In this document: positions 5,163-21,668 of the stretch, piece after piece
Layout: every line of letters begins with the position of its first letter
Position numbering within the stretch: the stretch's first letter is position 1
Assembly: GCA_021108435.1 (NCBI GenBank)
Contig: JAIOQY010000069.1
Coordinates: forward strand, 1-47,065
DNA from: Candidatus Aegiribacteria sp.
Lineage (GTDB): Bacteria; Fermentibacterota; Fermentibacteria; Fermentibacterales; JCC-6
DNA: 47,065 nucleotides
Direction of reading: 5' to 3'
The notes under the pieces: model-generated
Databases searched by the model: none
Told to the model about the DNA's origin: nothing
The model's input: only the letters and a program-made list of their open reading frames with translations
Translations under genes and position numbers: made by a program

Positions 5163-8100
5163 ATGAGCGCCAGAATCGGTATCGATATGGGATCTGTAAG
5201 CGTTAAAGTTGTACAAATGGATGGGAATCGTATTTCCAGAGCAGTATACAGGCGCCACCACGGTAATCCGGTTGACAGTCTTGTTTCTATTCTATCTGAT
5301 CTTGATGGGTGGGAGGGAATTCCCACGGCATTCACAGGCAGTTGCTCCAGAACAGCCGCTTTCGTTGCTGGAAGTAAGCCTGTAAATGAAGTTGTGGCTC
5401 TCGCAGGAGCGATACCTCAATGCTGTCCTGAGGTTTATTCGGTTATCGAGATGGGTGGACAGGATTCAAAACTTCTTCTGTTCAGAAATACTATTGAAGG
5501 AATCGCTTTCGATGATTTTTCAATGAATTCCGTCTGTGCCGCCGGCACAGGATCATTTCTTGATCAGCAGGCATCAAGGCTCGGACTGAAACCCGAAGAA
5601 CTCGGAGAACTTGCCCTTCAGTGCAAAAATCCTCCAAGAATTGCCGGCAGATGCAGTGTATTCGCGAAGACAGACATGATTCATCTACAGCAGATAGGAA
5701 CACCTGTAGCACATATTGTCGCAGGGCTCTGCTTCGCAGTTGCACGGAATTTCAAAAGTTCCATCGCCTCAGGAAAGGATTTTCGCCCTCCTGTCGCATT
5801 TGTGGGAGGAGTTGCAGCCAATCCAGGTATGGTTCAAGCATTCAGGGAAGTACTCGGTCATGAGTATTCTGATCTTATTGTACCCGAGCATTTCAGGTGT
5901 CTAGTAGCTGCTGGAGCCGCAATTGTATCCCGGGATAGTGATCTTTCAGTTCTTCAGAACAAATACATCGATAGTCTTCTGGATTCATCCGGGAGTAAAA
6001 TGACGGTGAAATCACTTGAACCTCTCAAACAGTTTTCCATTCATCATCCAGGCGTTGCATCAGCTCCCGTCATCACCACTGAGGCTGTCTACATAGGCAT
6101 TGATGTAGGTTCAATCAGCACAAATCTTGTGGCTATAGGAGCTCAAACCAGAGAGCTTCACGCATCTGAATATCTCATGACAGCCGGGAAACCACTTGAA
6201 GCTGTAAAGGAAGGACTTTCCAGACTGTTTCACACACTTGGTGCTGAAAGGGAAGTTCTCGGTCTTGGAACAACCGGTTCAGGCAGATATATGATAGGTG
6301 ATTTCACAGGAGCGGATGTTGTCAGGAATGAAATTACAGCTCAGGCAAGAGCTGCTGTTGAAATAGACCCTGGGGTAGACACTATTTTCGAGATTGGCGG
6401 GCAGGACTCCAAATACATTTCACTCGAGAATGGAAGAGTTGTCGATTTTGAGATGAACAAGGTTTGTGCCGCAGGAACAGGCTCATTTCTTGAGGAACAG
6501 GCCGAGAAGCTTGGACTCAGCATAAAGGATTTTGGACCATGTGCCATTAATGCCCCTGAGCCATGCGGTCTCGGTGAAAGATGCACCGTATTCATGGAAA
6601 GTGATGTATTTTCTCATCAGGCAGATGGCGCATCAGTTGAGAATCTTGTCTCCGGTCTATCATATTCAATTGTTAAGAATTATCTGCACAGAGTCGTAGG
6701 CGAGAAGAAAATCGGCAAGCATATTTTCTTTCAAGGCGGAACGGCATTCAATGAAGGTGTTGCAGCTGCTTTCAACGCGGTTCTCACTGATGGTAATATC
6801 ACAATACCCTCCAACCATCATGTAACAGGAGCAATAGGAGTCGCTCTGCTTGCAATGGAAGAAAAACAACCAGGGCCATCCTCATTCAAGGGATTCCGTC
6901 TGGCTTCCGAAAAATACAGACAGGATTCATTCGTATGCAAAAGCTGCTCCAATAATTGCGAAATCCACCGCGTAACTCTCCAGGATGGAAGAAAGCTTTA
7001 TTACGGAGGAAGATGTGAAAAGTATGAAACAGGAAAATCTTCAATAGAAGCGGATAATGAAGGACAAAACCTCTTTATTTACAGAGAAAAGCTACTTCTG
7101 GGTAATTTCAATGAAGAAGTATCAGGAACTAAACCAAAAATGGGAATCCCAAGAGCGCTCTGGTTCTGGGAGTTCTTTCCATTCTTCAGAACTTTCTTTG
7201 AAGAATGCGGTTTTGATGTTGTTCTTTCGGGAACTTCTACAAGTAATCTGATCCATTCCGGTGTTGAAAGCGTAGCAGCGGAAACCTGCTTTCCAGTGAA
7301 ACTTGCTCACGGACATGTTCTAGATCTGCTTGAAAAGGATGTGGACTACATATTTCTTCCTTCAATTCTAAGATCCTTCCCGCAGGGTAATTTTTCTGAA
7401 TCGTATAATTGTCCCTATATCGAAGGATCACCTCATATTATAGATTCCAGCCTCGGACTCTCAACCGAGGAAAATGTTAAAACACTCAGTCCGGTACTTG
7501 ATTTCTCTTTATCCGGTAAAGACTGGATGAATGGTCTTCTCAAAATGGCTGAGGGATTGAACATTAATAGAAAATCCGCAGTCAAAGCTTGTATGAATGC
7601 AAGGAAGAAGCAGACTGCTTTTGCGGATTCGTTATTGGAACTCGGTCGAGAAGCTCTCGCAAAAGTGAAAGATAATCAACCTGTATTCGTCATAATAAGC
7701 AGACCGTACAACGGTTCGGATCCTGCGGTTAATGTTGAACTTCCAGGTAAACTTGCGAAAATGGGAGCTATAGTCATACCTACCGATTGTCTTGAGCTTC
7801 CAATGGAGCGAATATCTGAAATGCACCCGAACATGTACTGGCAATATGGTCAGCGAATCATTGCAGCGGCACTTGCAATAAGAGAAAACAAGTTGCTTAA
7901 CGGTGTTTACATCACTAACTTCGGTTGCGGTCCTGATTCATTTATTCAACATGAAGTAGCAAGGATAATGGGCGAAAAACCTATGCTTACGATAGAAATC
8001 GATGAACATGCTGCTGACGCAGGTGTCATTACCCGTTGCGAAGCATTCATGGACGCTATTGCAGGCAGAAGAGAGAACGGAACATCTTCATTCCAGGAAA

Positions 8101-15352: not shown

Positions 15353-15436
15353 ATATGATTACGGTGCAATAGCATATAGTACTATTTAGTATTGATATTC
15401 TTTATATATTGTTCTGTTAGAGTATTGGGCCACATT

Positions 15437-15863
15437 ATGACAAAATTACAGTGTACAAATCGCATCATTCTCTGCGAATCACTTGGATTTCTTCTTGTTA
15501 TTGTTCTTATCTGGCTGGATGAAATACTTGATCTGCCTCACTTGATATTCGGAGCTGCTGTCACCCCCATTAACTATAAGGAAAGCATTTTTGAAACATT
15601 CATGATTCTGATTCTTGCAGGCTTGATCATTTTCCTTACACTGGAATTACTGAAAAGAATCAAAATTCTGTTCTTTCTGCAGAAAGATCCGGATTAACGG
15701 GGAATGGATCGTTCTTGACAGTTATGTAAGAAAACATTCAGAGGCCGATTTTTCTCATTCCGTATGTCCTTCGTGCATGAAAACACACTACAGTGAATTT
15801 ATTGATTACAATGAATCCGGAAAGAAAGATGACCATTGTATTGCGGACGATTCTGTCCCGTAG
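15437..15863 (+). pseudogene. Small two-helix membrane protein with Cys-rich tail, frameshifted
   Basis: The upstream frame from ATG 15437 encodes two membrane helices (about residues 10-28 and 52-72) separated by WLDEILDLPHLIFGA, then LKRIKIL, and closes at TAA 15697. The next frame (+1) is open from 15654 to TAG 15863. It reads CSFCRKIR, then NGEWIVLDSYVRKHSEADFS and HSVCPSCMK. From memory this is the C-terminal module (C-x2-C-K-K-I-R ... G-x-W ... H-S-x-x-x-F-S-H-G-x-C-P-x-C) found on small membrane proteins and signalling proteins of many anaerobes. The two halves belong together, and a net frameshift with perhaps a few lost codons lies between 15654 and 15694. Alternatives are a sequencing error or an unusual recoding event. 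The Cys pairs suggest metal or redox sensing. Confidence 0.6.
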
Positions 15864-15869: not shown

Positions 15870-15883
15870 CGTTCTAAATAATT

Positions 15884-16064
15884 GGTCGCGGGGTGCAGGA
15901 AGGCGGTGAGAATCCGCCACGGTAGCGCCACTGTAACCGGGAACCGACCTCCACTAGGAGGTTGTCCGACAATGCTTCATTATCGGACAGCCTTTTAGCC
16001 ACTGCCGAAAGGCGGGAAGGCGGGGGAAGGGCTGATCCGGAAGTCAGGATATTGCACCGCGGCC
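15884..16064 (+). promoter_or_regulatory. Cobalamin (B12) riboswitch
   Basis: The conserved core is present in order: GTGAGAATCCGCCACGG, then GCGCCACTGTAACCGGGAA, a peripheral hairpin at about 15957-15992, GCCACTGCCGAAAGGCGGGA, and the B12-box-like AAGTCAGGATATTGCACCGC. Bases 15884-15891 (GGTCGCGG) can pair with 16057-16064 (CCGCGGCC) as P1, which sets the limits. The element lies upstream of a TonB-dependent receptor and a beta-propeller lipoprotein, as expected for B12 uptake genes that are shut down when adenosyl- or other cobalamin is plentiful. Confidence 0.95.
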
Positions 16065-16106
16065 TGGAGCTTTAATCCCCGCTTGAGGGAGCTAGTTCCG
16101 GCCAGA

Positions 16107-16136
16107 GCCTCCGCGGCTTCATCAGTCGCAGGAGGT
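16107..16136 (+). promoter_or_regulatory. Possible Shine-Dalgarno-sequestering hairpin (riboswitch expression platform)
   Basis: GCCTCC at 16107-16112 is complementary to GGAGGT at 16131-16136, which is the ribosome binding site of the receptor gene (TTG at 16141). Closing this helix would hide the site, suggesting translational control by the riboswitch. I see no U-run terminator between the aptamer and the start codon. This is inferred from base pairing only. Confidence 0.4.
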
Positions 16137-16140
16137 ATTT

Positions 16141-18084
16141 TTGTTTCATGTTCTTCTTTTAATTTCTGCTGTCTCTCAGACTACTCTGTCGATCAGCGAT
16201 ACCGCCGGTTTTCCGGTAATTGCAGCATCCGTCTGCTCAGACAGCACAATCATAGGTATAACTGACTCTGAAGGCGCGGTTCTAATCACATCTGAACCTG
16301 ATTCGATTGAAATACATTCTATAGGGTATAACACATGGCGGGGATCTGTACCGACATCCGGACATGTAATACTTGTACCCGTGCCTGTTCCTTCTGGAAT
16401 GGTACTTTCGGTAATCGCATCACGTAGAGGATTCAGAAACCAGTTTCCATCGACTACAGTGCTTGATCGGGATGACATCGAATTCATTGCCAGGACCGGT
16501 TTTCGGAGCCTGAACAGCCGCTGCAGCGGTATTTACGTAAGGGAATATGGCGGCGCTATGCCTGTGATATCTGTTTCACTTAGAGGAAGTGATCCGGGAC
16601 ATTCAGGATATTACGTGGATGGTCATGATATTGGCAGTTCGCTTGATGGCCTTCCCGGCCTGACGCTTGATCCAATTGTGTTCAGCGGAGTTGAAATAGC
16701 CAGGGGAGGAGGGTCCGGCTTCCTGAAGGGTGGAATGGCGGGATCGTTGAATTTTCTGCCCGAATCACCCGGATTACCTTCAAGAGCAGCTGTTTCCATA
16801 AGTGATAATGGCGCATTGAGTTTATCCTGCGGAGTCTCGACAGGCAGAAATCGACTGGCTCTGAGTATCAGGAGGCTTGTTGGAATAGAAAGCACCGTAG
16901 CGCACGACGGGGTAGTACTCTTCATCGGGAACACGGATGGATTCAGATATGGTTTTATGGCAGCTGCTTCAGGGGGAGAAACCGAGAGCCCGGACTGGAG
17001 CCCTCCAACTGACGGAAGAAGACAGAGGTACTCTTTTGACGGGTGGGTACGATGGATACTGAGTGATTACACTCTTTCCACCGACTTCAGAACGGGAAGA
17101 CATATCTACAGATCTGCAACTCCGACAGTCATTGATGATACTCACGACGAATTAAGAGGATCACTTACTCTTGAGTACGATTTATCATTCCTGTGTCTTG
17201 AAACGCATATTGCAGGGAGGAGCATATTTGAGCAGGTATGGAGTACTTCTCTAGGAGAGAGAGACAGGCTGACAGGTGATCTATCGTTTTCATCCGGATA
17301 TACTGACGATTTATCAATAACAGTATCGACAAGATTGAACTGTATATCGAACGGAGATACAAGGTTTGGAGCAGTACTCTCCACTGGTGTACCTGTATTT
17401 GATTCTCTTTTCATTTGTCATATAAGCGGATCCAGGGGATTCAGAAGACCAACCATCAACGATCTGTACTGGCCTGAGGACACTTTCGCGAGAGGGAATC
17501 CCGATCTGAAATCGGAAAACTCTCTGGAAACTGAGATCGGAGTATCACTCATCGGATGCGAGTTGATAAAAGTGTCAACAACCGGTTTCCTGGCAATGAC
17601 TGATGATCTCATAAGATGGGAACCCGGAAGTGACGGACTATGGTCACCTGTTAATATCTCAAAAGCATTAAGAAAAGGTATTGAAACCGAGGTTCTGTTC
17701 AGGTACAGATCACTGACAGTCAGAGTCAGTTTCACTCTTCTTAGCGTTACCGATGACTCGCCGGAATCAACAAATTACGGCAGTGTTCTTCCGTATACAC
17801 CTGATTATACATTCGGTCTTGAAACCGGTCTTGATATCTTCAGCGGAATTCACTGTTCGGTGTCTCTAGGCGGGATGGGCATAAGGTTCAAGAATTACAG
17901 CGAAACTTCCTGGCTTCCTGCTTATTCAATCGTTTCAGCCGGACTGGATATGCCTATACCATTTACAGGTAATTTCTCTATAGGAACATCGGTCGAAAAT
18001 ATGTTCGACGAAGAATACCAGGAAACAAGCGGATTCAGAGGAAAACCAAGAACTTTCACCTTCAGCATCAAATGGAGCAATTGA
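16141..18084 (+). CDS. btuB: TonB-dependent cobalamin receptor, BtuB-like
   Basis: This 647-residue outer-membrane receptor begins with a short signal peptide (hydrophobic FHVLLLISAVS). A carboxypeptidase-regulatory-like beta domain follows (about 18-80; GFPVIAASV, IGITDSEGAVLI). Next comes a plug domain (about 90-205) with VYVREY-like and VSLRGSDPGHSGYYVDG segments plus VEIARGGGSGFLKGGMAGSL. The beta-barrel is rich in alternating aromatic strands and has YQETSGFRGKPRTFTFSI at the C-terminus, a typical last strand. The start is TTG 16141, with AGGAGG five bases upstream. The upstream cobalamin riboswitch makes corrinoid import, powered by TonB, the likely function. No TonB/ExbBD or BtuCDF genes are in the window. 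The family call is firm and the substrate follows from the riboswitch. Confidence 0.92.
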   Translation: MFHVLLLISAVSQTTLSISDTAGFPVIAASVCSDSTIIGITDSEGAVLITSEPDSIEIHSIGYNTWRGSVPTSGHVILVPVPVPSGMVLSVIASRRGFRNQFPSTTVLDRDDIEFIARTGFRSLNSRCSGIYVREYGGAMPVISVSLRGSDPGHSGYYVDGHDIGSSLDGLPGLTLDPIVFSGVEIARGGGSGFLKGGMAGSLNFLPESPGLPSRAAVSISDNGALSLSCGVSTGRNRLALSIRRLVGIESTVAHDGVVLFIGNTDGFRYGFMAAASGGETESPDWSPPTDGRRQRYSFDGWVRWILSDYTLSTDFRTGRHIYRSATPTVIDDTHDELRGSLTLEYDLSFLCLETHIAGRSIFEQVWSTSLGERDRLTGDLSFSSGYTDDLSITVSTRLNCISNGDTRFGAVLSTGVPVFDSLFICHISGSRGFRRPTINDLYWPEDTFARGNPDLKSENSLETEIGVSLIGCELIKVSTTGFLAMTDDLIRWEPGSDGLWSPVNISKALRKGIETEVLFRYRSLTVRVSFTLLSVTDDSPESTNYGSVLPYTPDYTFGLETGLDIFSGIHCSVSLGGMGIRFKNYSETSWLPAYSIVSAGLDMPIPFTGNFSIGTSVENMFDEEYQETSGFRGKPRTFTFSIKWSN

Positions 18085-18186
18085 GGGACATGCACGCTCT
18101 GGTGCGTGTCCCGGAAAATAAGACATGCACGCTCTGGTGCGTGTCCCGGAAAATAAGACATGCACGCTCTGGTGCGTGTCCCGGAG
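18085..18186 (+). repeat. Three tandem 35-bp palindromic (REP-like) repeats
   Basis: Starting one base after the receptor stop codon, a 35-base unit is repeated three times (period starts at 18087, 18122 and 18157). Each unit contains GACATGCAC and GTGCGTGTC around the loop GCTCTG. The first can form an 11-bp stem (18085-18095 with 18102-18112) with one G-U pair. Units are separated by CGGAAAATAA. The array fills the gap between the receptor and lipoprotein genes, ending just before the ribosome binding site of the latter. Confidence 0.9.
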
Positions 18187-18200
18187 ACAAGGAAGGAAAC

Positions 18201-19217
18201 ATGATGCGAAAAGAACATCTCAATGTTCTCACTCTCACCAGTATTACACTGATACTGTTTCTAGCGGTATCCTGCAATTCCCCTGTTGAACCAGATCCTG
18301 GAACTAATCCCAGCGGTAATGTGGTTGCATGGTTCAACGGACTGGCTAATACCGTTGATCTATACTTCCCCGAAAGTGATTTGCTGGTATCGACGGCCTA
18401 CATTACCGGTGATGCACCAAATGATTTCTTCTACCTGGGTTCTGACAAGCTGGCAGTTCTGAGCTCCCTTTCCTCTGTGCTCCATGTCGTCGATCTGTCA
18501 GTATCGGGATCATTACTGCACGAGATTACCTTTCCAGGGGGCAGCAATCCCTGGGCCATGGCTTATGACAACGGCAAAATCTGGGTTACTTTTCTGCTTA
18601 CCGGCCAGATAGCAGCCGTGTCAACTGATAGCTGGACACTTGGTGAAACAGTGGATGTTACCGAATATCCTTACGGAATTACAATTGCATCAGGTAGCAT
18701 ATTCGTTAGCCACGGGGACTATACAGAACCCAATCCTCCCGGCGGAGTAACTGTATTAGATGCGGTGACTCTCGAGGAAACTGGATGGATCGATACGGGG
18801 CAGAACACAATCGATCTGTGGTATTGCAGTGAAACGGGGAACATCCATGCATTCTCTTACACCTACACGGATAACGATGACGGTGTTGTTTCCATCATCG
18901 ATCCTGTTACTGCAACAATTAAAGCTCAGGTGCAGACCGGAGGTACCCCGCATTCACCTGTTAGAGTGGGTAGCTCTTTCGCCTGCTGTGACTGGGGCTC
19001 TTCGATTTTCTTCTACAGCGAATCCGGATCACTTCTTTCAACATGGGTGCTTGATACATCGATTACGCTTGCAGGTCTTGCCGTCAGCGGGGATACTCTC
19101 TATATGACCGACTTTGATGGAGATAAGGTCTATCGTGCTCTCTGGCAGTCTCAGGTCCTTCTGGGCTCTCTCACCGCCGGAGACGGCCCTCAGGGAATAA
19201 TAGCAATAGAACGATAA
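18201..19217 (+). CDS. Beta-propeller lipoprotein, probable BtuG-like cobalamin-binding surface protein
   Basis: This is a roughly 338-residue lipoprotein. The signal peptide ends in FLAVSC, so Cys25 would be lipidated. The mature part has repeated four-strand blades of the YVTN/YncE type (for example AYDNGKIWVTFLLTGQIAAV, then ITIASGSIFVSHGD, GLAVSGDTLYMTDFDGDKVY), ending GDGPQGIIAIER. In Bacteroides, BtuG is a seven-bladed YncE-like (DUF5074) lipoprotein that binds B12 and hands it to BtuB. The same fold type placed directly after a BtuB-like gene under a B12 riboswitch supports that role here. Starts at 18201 or 18204 both fit the GGAAGG at 18191. Upstream in-frame codons run through the hairpin repeats and are not credible. 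Confidence 0.85.
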   Translation: MMRKEHLNVLTLTSITLILFLAVSCNSPVEPDPGTNPSGNVVAWFNGLANTVDLYFPESDLLVSTAYITGDAPNDFFYLGSDKLAVLSSLSSVLHVVDLSVSGSLLHEITFPGGSNPWAMAYDNGKIWVTFLLTGQIAAVSTDSWTLGETVDVTEYPYGITIASGSIFVSHGDYTEPNPPGGVTVLDAVTLEETGWIDTGQNTIDLWYCSETGNIHAFSYTYTDNDDGVVSIIDPVTATIKAQVQTGGTPHSPVRVGSSFACCDWGSSIFFYSESGSLLSTWVLDTSITLAGLAVSGDTLYMTDFDGDKVYRALWQSQVLLGSLTAGDGPQGIIAIER

Positions 19218-19274: not shown

Positions 19275-21668
19275 ATGTCCGCTTCTTCATGTGATCTGCA
19301 CGTACATTCGAAGTATTCAAAAGAATCGGGAAGATGGATTCTCAGAGCGCTCAAAGCACCTGAGAGTTTTACTCCGCCTGAATTGATCTATGAACTCGCT
19401 AAGAAACGCGGGATGGATTTCGTTACCATTACCGATATCAACACGATTGATGGCTGTCTGAGCATTTCTCACCATCCTGATACTTTCCTGAGCGAGGAAG
19501 TAAGAACTTTTCTGCCCGGCAGAAGAGCTGCTTTGCATATCCTTGTATTCAATCTGACTCCGGAGCAGCACGAAGAAATGATTCCTTTGAGAGACTCTTT
19601 TCCGGCACTTATGGAATATTTTGCCGATCAGCAGCTTTCTCATTCGCTGGCGCACCCATTCTATTTCCCGGGAACAGACCTTACTCCGGAAGAATTCAAA
19701 ATGGTCATTAATAATGTCGATCTTGTGGAATCTCTCAACGGCGTAAGATCACGGGATGAAAACATCTCCGTAATTCCAATTGTCAGATCGATCAGAGAAG
19801 ATCCTGACTTTAATGGATTTACAGGCGGATCAGACGATCACTGCGGAAGATTCATGGGACTTACATATACTGAAGTAAGAGACGCGAATAATCTTGAAGA
19901 ATACCTTGATGGCGTGAGAAATGGAAAAGGTATCCCGAAGGGTGAACACGGCAGCGCGATTCGCTCCGCTTACTCTGTTTACTCTATCGCATATTCATTC
20001 TATCGTGACCGTCTTACAGCACAGAAAATGCCGACTATTGCCACTCTTGCCGCAGACAGATTCTTTCGGCCCTCGATAACCTCAGCTGAACCAACTGTCT
20101 GGCATAAGGCAGATTTTCTTTTTCATCAATTGATCAAAAAAGGTAAGAAGTCAGGAGAATCGGATTTTGAAACTATTTTCGCTGACCAGCTGATAGAAAT
20201 AGGAAAAGATCTGAATCTGAGATCGGGCAGTCCTGAACTTGAAGCGGAAGGAATAGACGAAAGAACTTTCGAAATCCTTAACAGGCTCAGCAACAGCCTT
20301 CTTAAGCATTATTCCTCTCTTCTTATCAAGAGGATTTCGGATGGCAGACTCCTCGATGCTCTTGAAGCATTTACCGCGCTTATTCCAGTTGTACTGCTTA
20401 ATATCCCTTATCCTCTGGCCTATCTAAACAGAAAGAAGGGCAGAGAGGCTGTTGAGACCGTTTCAGCAGAATTATCTCCTGAGATATTCAGCAGTCTGCG
20501 AAATCCCTGCAAAAGAGTCTGGTTCACCGATACAATCGATGACCTTAACGGAGTCTCACGCACAATTCAGAAATACAGCAGGCTGGCGATCGATACAGGA
20601 AGGGAAATGGCGGTAATCGCCTCACAGAGCAGACCGCTCTCTTTCCCCGGATGGGTTGTGAATTTTCCTCCGCTTCGCGAGTTTCCGGTTCCTGATTACC
20701 ACTCAAAACTTCTTTCTGTTCCTCCTTTTCTTGAAGTGCTTCGATTTGTTGAGGAGGAAGGCTTCGGGATGATGTACATTTCTACGCCGGGTCCGGTAGG
20801 ATTTGCCGCTCTGGGCATATCTCGACTCCTTGGTATCCCTGCGGCAGGTATATATCACACAGATTACCCCAGACATGTTAATCATATTGTTCAGGACGGT
20901 AAAATGGGAGAATTCGCTGGAACAGCCGCTGCATGGTTTTATAACAGTGTTGATACAGTACTTGTCCCCAGCAGATTCTATATGAACGATCTTGAGGCTA
21001 TGGGCATTCCAAGAGAGAGGATGGAGCTGTTTCCAAGAGGAACTGACTGCGACCTTTTCTCACCTGTATGGAGATCCGATGAATTCGTGCGGAAATACGG
21101 TGGTAATCCCGGATCCATCCGCCTTGTATACGCAGGCAGAGTTTCCAGAGAAAAAGACCTTGATATACTGGCCAGCGCATTCATTACAGCAAAGGATTCA
21201 CTACCTTCTCTTGAACTCTACATATTGGGGGATGGCCCTTACCTTGGAGAACTTGTTAACGAACTCAGCGGCATGGGCTGTTACTTCTGCGGAGAACTGC
21301 ACGGAGAGGATTTGTCCATAGCTTACGCCTCGGGAGATATCTTTGTATTTCCAAGTTCCACAGATACTTTTGGTAATTCGGTTCTGGAAGCCCAGGCTTC
21401 AGGTCTTCCTGCAATAGTAAGCGACAGGGGAGGACCACAGGAGATCATTGAACCCGGAAAGACCGGTCTTGTTTTTGAAAGTCATAATCCGGAATCACTT
21501 GCTTCCGTTATATTGCGCATTGCGAGGAATGAAGAAATGATGAAATCCATGAGCGCGAGAGCAAGAAAAATGGCAATGGCCAGAACCTGGGATAAGGCAT
21601 TCGATGAATTGTGGAACATATCACCTTCAAAACCCAGTGCGAAGAACAGAAATGGATCATGTAAATAA
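19275..21668 (+). CDS. PHP-domain / GT-B glycosyltransferase fusion
   Basis: This 797-residue protein begins with a PHP metallophosphoesterase domain (about 5-240): DLHVHSKYS, FVTITDINTIDG, LAHPFYFPG and FTGGSDDHCG supply the metal-binding His/Asp set. A linker of about 150 residues follows. A GT4-type GT-B glycosyltransferase covers about 410-790: RLVYAGRVSREKDLDIL, LYILGDGPY, then DIFVFPSSTDTFGNSVLEA with the E-x7-E type acceptor/donor motif and SDRGGPQEII. The start ATG has AGGAGG five bases upstream. It acts in the cytosol, probably on a nucleotide sugar and an envelope lipid or glycan. What the PHP half hydrolyses is unknown. A four-base gap follows before the potassium channel gene. Confidence 0.9.
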   Translation: MSASSCDLHVHSKYSKESGRWILRALKAPESFTPPELIYELAKKRGMDFVTITDINTIDGCLSISHHPDTFLSEEVRTFLPGRRAALHILVFNLTPEQHEEMIPLRDSFPALMEYFADQQLSHSLAHPFYFPGTDLTPEEFKMVINNVDLVESLNGVRSRDENISVIPIVRSIREDPDFNGFTGGSDDHCGRFMGLTYTEVRDANNLEEYLDGVRNGKGIPKGEHGSAIRSAYSVYSIAYSFYRDRLTAQKMPTIATLAADRFFRPSITSAEPTVWHKADFLFHQLIKKGKKSGESDFETIFADQLIEIGKDLNLRSGSPELEAEGIDERTFEILNRLSNSLLKHYSSLLIKRISDGRLLDALEAFTALIPVVLLNIPYPLAYLNRKKGREAVETVSAELSPEIFSSLRNPCKRVWFTDTIDDLNGVSRTIQKYSRLAIDTGREMAVIASQSRPLSFPGWVVNFPPLREFPVPDYHSKLLSVPPFLEVLRFVEEEGFGMMYISTPGPVGFAALGISRLLGIPAAGIYHTDYPRHVNHIVQDGKMGEFAGTAAAWFYNSVDTVLVPSRFYMNDLEAMGIPRERMELFPRGTDCDLFSPVWRSDEFVRKYGGNPGSIRLVYAGRVSREKDLDILASAFITAKDSLPSLELYILGDGPYLGELVNELSGMGCYFCGELHGEDLSIAYASGDIFVFPSSTDTFGNSVLEAQASGLPAIVSDRGGPQEIIEPGKTGLVFESHNPESLASVILRIARNEEMMKSMSARARKMAMARTWDKAFDELWNISPSKPSAKNRNGSCK

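Follow-up and report, generated by a model that had tools for sequence, protein, structure and literature searches.

Can vitamin B12 be captured by a propeller lipoprotein acting as a lid on a TonB-dependent receptor, as in the BtuB-BtuG pairs of Bacteroides, outside the Bacteroidetes? The question is raised by a locus in contig JAIOQY010000069.1 of Candidatus Aegiribacteria sp. (assembly GCA_021108435.1), a stretch of 47,065 nucleotides (the window) that is contig C69 of a 2.92-Mb genome, 95.6% complete. A cobalamin riboswitch, a BtuB-type receptor gene and a gene for a lipobox propeller all lie on the plus strand and in one direction, as a sequence-only reading of the window had described. 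Its suspicion that the host stood outside the Bacteroidetes was also correct: the host is a member of the Fermentibacterota, and its GTDB-named relatives are all Candidatus Fermentibacteria, Aegiribacteria or Sabulitectum. BtuG homologues were reported to be exclusive to Bacteroidetes by Wexler et al., from 313 human gut genomes, and were explained by competition in the gut (PMC6143338); a literature search found no paper revising this, but one may still exist. The window pair is a taxonomically surprising member of the known BtuB-BtuG kind. We put at roughly 0.85 the probability that it is a riboswitch-controlled, outer-membrane pair for the capture and import of B12 (corrinoids), working like Bacteroides BtuB-BtuG, with ligand binding and the lid complex both predicted. 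Sequence and model comparisons support this interpretation, while formal membership in BtuG is not yet claimed.

The cobalamin riboswitch aptamer (RF00174) occupies positions 15873-16074 of the plus strand and was matched by cmscan over its full length (model positions 1-189) with 65.7 bits, against an Rfam gathering score of 31.5 (E 3.9e-14). The earlier claim of a complete aptamer therefore stands, except that it begins at 15873 and not at 15884. In the consensus fold of 13 Fermentibacterota leaders, a conserved plus-strand hairpin (16061-16103) overlaps the 3' end of the aptamer and shows two-sided changes at four pairs (RNAalifold); it is placed as expected for P13 of a cobalamin riboswitch and may serve as such. 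A second plus-strand hairpin (16107-16136) hides the Shine-Dalgarno (SD) sequence, with CCTCC (16108-16112) pairing with AGGAGG (16130-16135), and is kept in the same 13 leaders with 11 pairs, two of them with two-sided changes, which brings the two leader hairpins together to six such pairs. It would be the translational expression platform of the receptor gene. The motif CCGCGGC in the anti-SD arm (16108-16119) duplicates the 3' strand of aptamer helix P1 (16058-16065), as it does in most relatives, so that a strand exchange between P1 and the anti-SD arm is a plausible switch. Elsewhere among the genomes examined, two pairs of cobalamin riboswitches were found back to back and divergent, less than about 100 bases apart, one at G023:C8:7599-7796 (minus strand) and 7825-8016 (plus strand), the second at G038:C19:15160-15324 (minus strand) and 15420-15614 (plus strand).

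The receptor gene (16141-18084, plus strand) starts with TTG at 16141, preceded by AGGAGG, and specifies a signal peptide, a plug and a barrel. Pfam models for both the barrel (TonB_dep_Rec_b-barrel, E 1.4e-19) and the plug (Plug, E 4.1e-6) scored over their cut-offs, so it is a TonB-dependent receptor as first proposed. When a receptor profile (A2) was compared with PDB sequences, the matches were to BtuB2 (9e-32), BtuB3 (5e-29), BtuB1 (4e-22) and E. coli BtuB (2e-16), and 10 of the 11 PDB sequences at E<=1e-12 were BtuB; the single receptor sequence gave the same top matches, the Bacteroides BtuBs. Among NCBIfam models the best-scoring was TIGR01779, the classic BtuB equivalog, at 68.3 bits, which is far below its cut-off of 599.7 bits. 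In the mechanism published for Bacteroides (PMC10404256), B12 is dislodged from the BtuG lid by extracellular loop 8 (EL8) of BtuB, in which BtuB3 has Tyr538 where BtuB2 has Phe and BtuB1 has Trp. Alignments place Trp501 of the window receptor (codon 17641-17643, plus strand) in this same column (Tyr538, Phe, Trp and Trp501, respectively), and the residue is invariant in 17 Fermentibacterota receptors, whereas E. coli BtuB has Leu there, in a shorter loop. Only Tyr538 was used as a reference point, as the EL8 tip given for BtuB3 (Ser524-Leu531; PMC10404256) is at odds with the residue count in the PDB sequence. Since the aromatic is shared with the Bacteroides BtuBs, the receptor appears, by alignment alone, to retain a feature of BtuBs that carry a BtuG lid.

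The propeller gene (18201-19217, plus strand) begins with ATG at 18201 (or 18204) and encodes a lipobox, LAVSC, with Cys25 as the anchor, in agreement with the sequence-only reading; Cys25 is invariant in 22 orthologues. The open reading frame caller had set the start at 18072, which lies too far upstream: the 43 codons that this adds run across a hairpin repeat. No Pfam family was matched, and NCBIfam detected only generic beta-propeller repeats (YVTN repeat TIGR02276, weak, E 7.9e-5, below cut-off). The predicted blades were confirmed instead by an AlphaFold2 (AF2) model with a mean predicted local distance difference test score (pLDDT) of 91 and a predicted template modelling score (pTM) of 0.86, which settles the fold as a seven-bladed propeller. 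Foldseek comparison of this model with the PDB placed BtuG1, BtuG2 and BtuG3 in all of ranks 1-12 (E 4e-18 to 6.5e-15), followed by the archaeal YVTN protein 1l0q at rank 13 (E 1e-14), with E. coli YncE only at rank 45 (2e-11); the resemblance to BtuG thus goes beyond that to a generic YVTN fold. A phmmer search of the PDB returned just three matches at E<10, all of them BtuG chains (8blw, 8ptd and 8ptf; best 7e-9), and with a profile of the 22 orthologues BtuG1 had the best single-domain score. Several propeller loops carry conserved aromatic positions in the orthologue alignment.

Is this arrangement peculiar to the phylum? The propeller profile was searched over 385 genomes, and 30 strong loci outside the Fermentibacterota (genome-level E 1e-40 to 1e-15; 22 families) were compared with 10 weak propeller loci (E about 1e-6 to 1e-8) as controls. 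Of the strong loci, 24 (18 families) had a cobalamin riboswitch, as against 0 of the 10 weak ones (Fisher p 9e-6), and a receptor matching profile A2 was near the propeller in 23/30 against 0/10 (Fisher p 2e-5). In a tree of 56 rows the weak, generic propellers formed one clade (support 99/92), apart from the riboswitch-linked ones. SusD, taken as a proxy for Bacteroidota, was absent from 27 of the 30 strong-locus genomes. Given this linkage and the absence of SusD, the arrangement of riboswitch, receptor and propeller is widespread and probably mostly non-Bacteroidota, and similar pairs in about 18 additional families, the majority of whose genomes lack SusD, point to the wider spread of the BtuG strategy that had been anticipated. 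A plasmid collection gave no named out-of-phylum example of the window propeller (for a relative, only generic lactonase-like matches at E 1e-6), and no relatives were found among viral contigs.

The receptor-linked propellers of Fermentibacterota are anchored by a lipobox. Elsewhere, they were judged by eye to be lipoproteins in 9 of the first 20 loci, and others carry a C-terminal tail, either FlgD-like or of the type IX sorting kind. Type IX tails direct proteins to the cell surface, so the exchange of lipid and type IX anchors favours a surface location for all of these propellers. Gene searches in the host genome were made family by family. The genes for BtuF, BtuD and BtuC are clustered (C170:16619-19211), 17 B12-binding domains scored over cut-off, and a family search of the 95.6%-complete genome found no CbiC; taken together, these indicate that the organism probably salvages B12, and it most likely depends on scavenging. 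In the mechanism that we propose, scarcity of B12 would keep the receptor gene's AGGAGG accessible, while bound B12 would favour the SD-hiding hairpin, as its conservation suggests, and translation would fall. Tethered by a lipid at Cys25, presumably on the outside of the cell, the propeller would capture corrinoids with one face, to judge from fold and context, and would cover the BtuB-type barrel like a lid. An EL8-type loop with Trp501 may help to release the vitamin into the barrel, given the conservation of this aromatic, and TonB-dependent passage to the periplasm could then be followed by import through BtuF-BtuD-BtuC, the genes for which are present.

Several observations weigh against this reading. 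The structural alignments gave the propeller just 13-20% identity to BtuG, with TM-scores (0.71-0.76) hardly above the 0.73 obtained for the generic YVTN protein 1l0q, so that the lead of BtuG over generic propellers in the Foldseek ranking is small in TM-score and larger in E-value. The total profile score of 1l0q exceeded that of BtuG, owing to its many repeats. The BtuG2 pocket residues W194, W272, Y316 and Y335 had no reliable mapping onto the propeller, and a PDB search with a relative whose genome bears SusD (L150), meant as a bridge to BtuG2, gave only 1l0q. The residues following Cys25 (CNSPVEPDPG) lack the canonical Bacteroidetes lipoprotein export signal, so the surface exposure presumed for the window propeller rests on analogy; the signal was described as a Bacteroidetes feature (PMC6143338) and need not hold in another phylum. 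Finally, the absence of CbiC is a single marker in an incomplete genome, and the phyla of the out-of-phylum loci were judged through the SusD proxy.

Low identity also leaves room for convergence, with an ordinary YVTN lipoprotein of Fermentibacterota having given rise on its own to a BtuG-type lid, which would work like BtuG without homology of the systems. The propeller tree has many unresolved forks and did not include Bacteroides BtuG sequences, both of which would allow for this. Yet the order of receptor then propeller is the same, the receptor too is closest to the Bacteroides BtuBs, and riboswitch-linked propellers separate from generic ones in the tree, so an independent origin seems improbable, if the best survivor among the alternatives. 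A second possibility is that the receptor is a genuine BtuB accompanied by a generic YVTN or lactonase-like lipoprotein with another job, such as an enzyme, a scaffold or part of a surface layer. The weak resemblance to BtuG in sequence, the close TM-scores of other propellers and the generic NCBIfam matches are what this would predict; even so, it is distinctly unlikely, as the linkage to riboswitch and receptor is held over about 18 families and gone in generic propellers, and BtuG structures outrank all other propellers in Foldseek. Cobalt transport also lies under cobalamin riboswitches in other organisms. It is very improbable that the pair takes up, in place of cobalamin, a related substrate under riboswitch control, such as cobalt chelates or only incomplete corrinoids, even though cobinamide is, besides cobalamins, a ligand of BtuG2 (PMC10404256): the top matches of the receptor are BtuBs of B12 importers, and BtuFDC and enzymes that bind corrinoids are encoded in the genome, without CbiC.

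Families f1 and f3 of the phylum retain the order riboswitch-receptor-propeller, and in family f2 a riboswitch and receptor were found with the contig ending there. A frame of 1026-1036 aa in f3 genomes, which might have been a fusion of the propeller to another domain, was rejected as GC-rich read-through upstream. Downstream of the pair, a gene fusing PHP and GT4 glycosyltransferase domains (19275-21668, plus strand; Pfam) was found in most of the named loci whose contig extends far enough; its conservation across the phylum does not imply a role in B12 uptake. Between the receptor and propeller genes lie three tandem, REP-like 35-bp hairpin repeats (18086-18190, plus strand), with the sequence GACATGCACGCTCTGGTGCGTGTC. 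The repeat has 27 genomic copies at <=3 mismatches, compared with 0 for a reversed control, and in its major variant, GCAGGCTCTGCTGC, a C-G pair of the stem is replaced by a G-C pair. As the copies are dispersed over the genome, an operon-specific regulatory element was rejected, and the repeats probably stand outside the uptake mechanism.

The other cobalamin riboswitch of the genome (C153:14137-14301, 100.8 bits) heads a locus (C153:14137-16404) in which a second propeller and a 271-aa protein follow, both with Por_Secre_tail; SprA of type IX secretion is encoded in the same genome, and sets of this type are present throughout the phylum. The N-terminal domain of the 271-aa protein (DPWAD...GPPDPD...FDLDAVVAVN) gave weak but consistent matches to NCBIfam LIC_13355 in 14/14 collected members (up to 3e-10). 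LIC_13355 itself is a Leptospira lipoprotein so far studied for host binding only, in a functional paper that does not mention B12 (PMC11891782). Domains of this type are also fused behind receptor-linked propellers at L139:5543-7441, L144:4437-6245 and L148:336-2240, and at L147 one is encoded next to the propeller, unfused. In the BtuGH fusion of B. thetaiotaomicron both halves bind B12 (PMC12751083), and by analogy the LIC_13355-type domain is hypothesised to share the role of BtuH, with which it had no sequence match. A model of the domain was of low confidence (pLDDT 68) and was not relied on; its best Foldseek match was the BtuG1 chain of 8blw (E 0.011), the others being F5/8-type C domains. 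We suggest, tentatively and at somewhat less than even odds, that Fermentibacterota also use this second riboswitch locus to scavenge corrinoids by means of type IX-secreted proteins, the propeller being joined by a new class of B12-binding domain. If true, this would make BtuG-type capture an old strategy shared by several phyla, in which the surface anchor can be either a lipid or a type IX tail.

A conserved operon in a candidate phylum, together with similar operons in about 18 further families, implies that the use of such lids dates further back, or has moved between lineages more readily, and is not bound to the gut. The divergent sequences should be useful for telling corrinoid-binding from barrel-binding residues, and the LIC_13355-type domain is a further candidate for B12 binding.

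Among known systems, the best structural matches of the propeller are BtuG1, BtuG2 and BtuG3 of B. thetaiotaomicron (8blw, 8bmy, 8bmz, 8okv; PMC6143338, PMC10404256), likewise seven-bladed propeller lipoproteins encoded beside btuB under a cobalamin riboswitch. The window propeller differs from them in its low identity, in lacking their canonical export signal and in its Fermentibacterota host, and its ligand binding is predicted. BtuGH (BT_1490; PMC12751083, PMC8941943) is matched in that the L139, L144 and L148 propellers also carry a second C-terminal domain, but this is of LIC_13355 type, with a B12 role that is hypothetical. E. coli BtuB (1nqe) is, like the window receptor, assigned to B12 and is the subject of its best NCBIfam model, but it is without a propeller partner, and its shorter loop lacks the aromatic. 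The closest counterparts of the receptor are BtuB2, BtuB3 and BtuB1 of B. thetaiotaomicron (8bmx, 8p97, 8blw), from which it differs in its low identity, with the match mostly in the C-terminal half of the barrel, and in a Fermentibacterota-type N-terminal extension ahead of the plug, and with which it shares the plug and barrel of a TonB-dependent receptor, the EL8 aromatic and a partner gene for a propeller.

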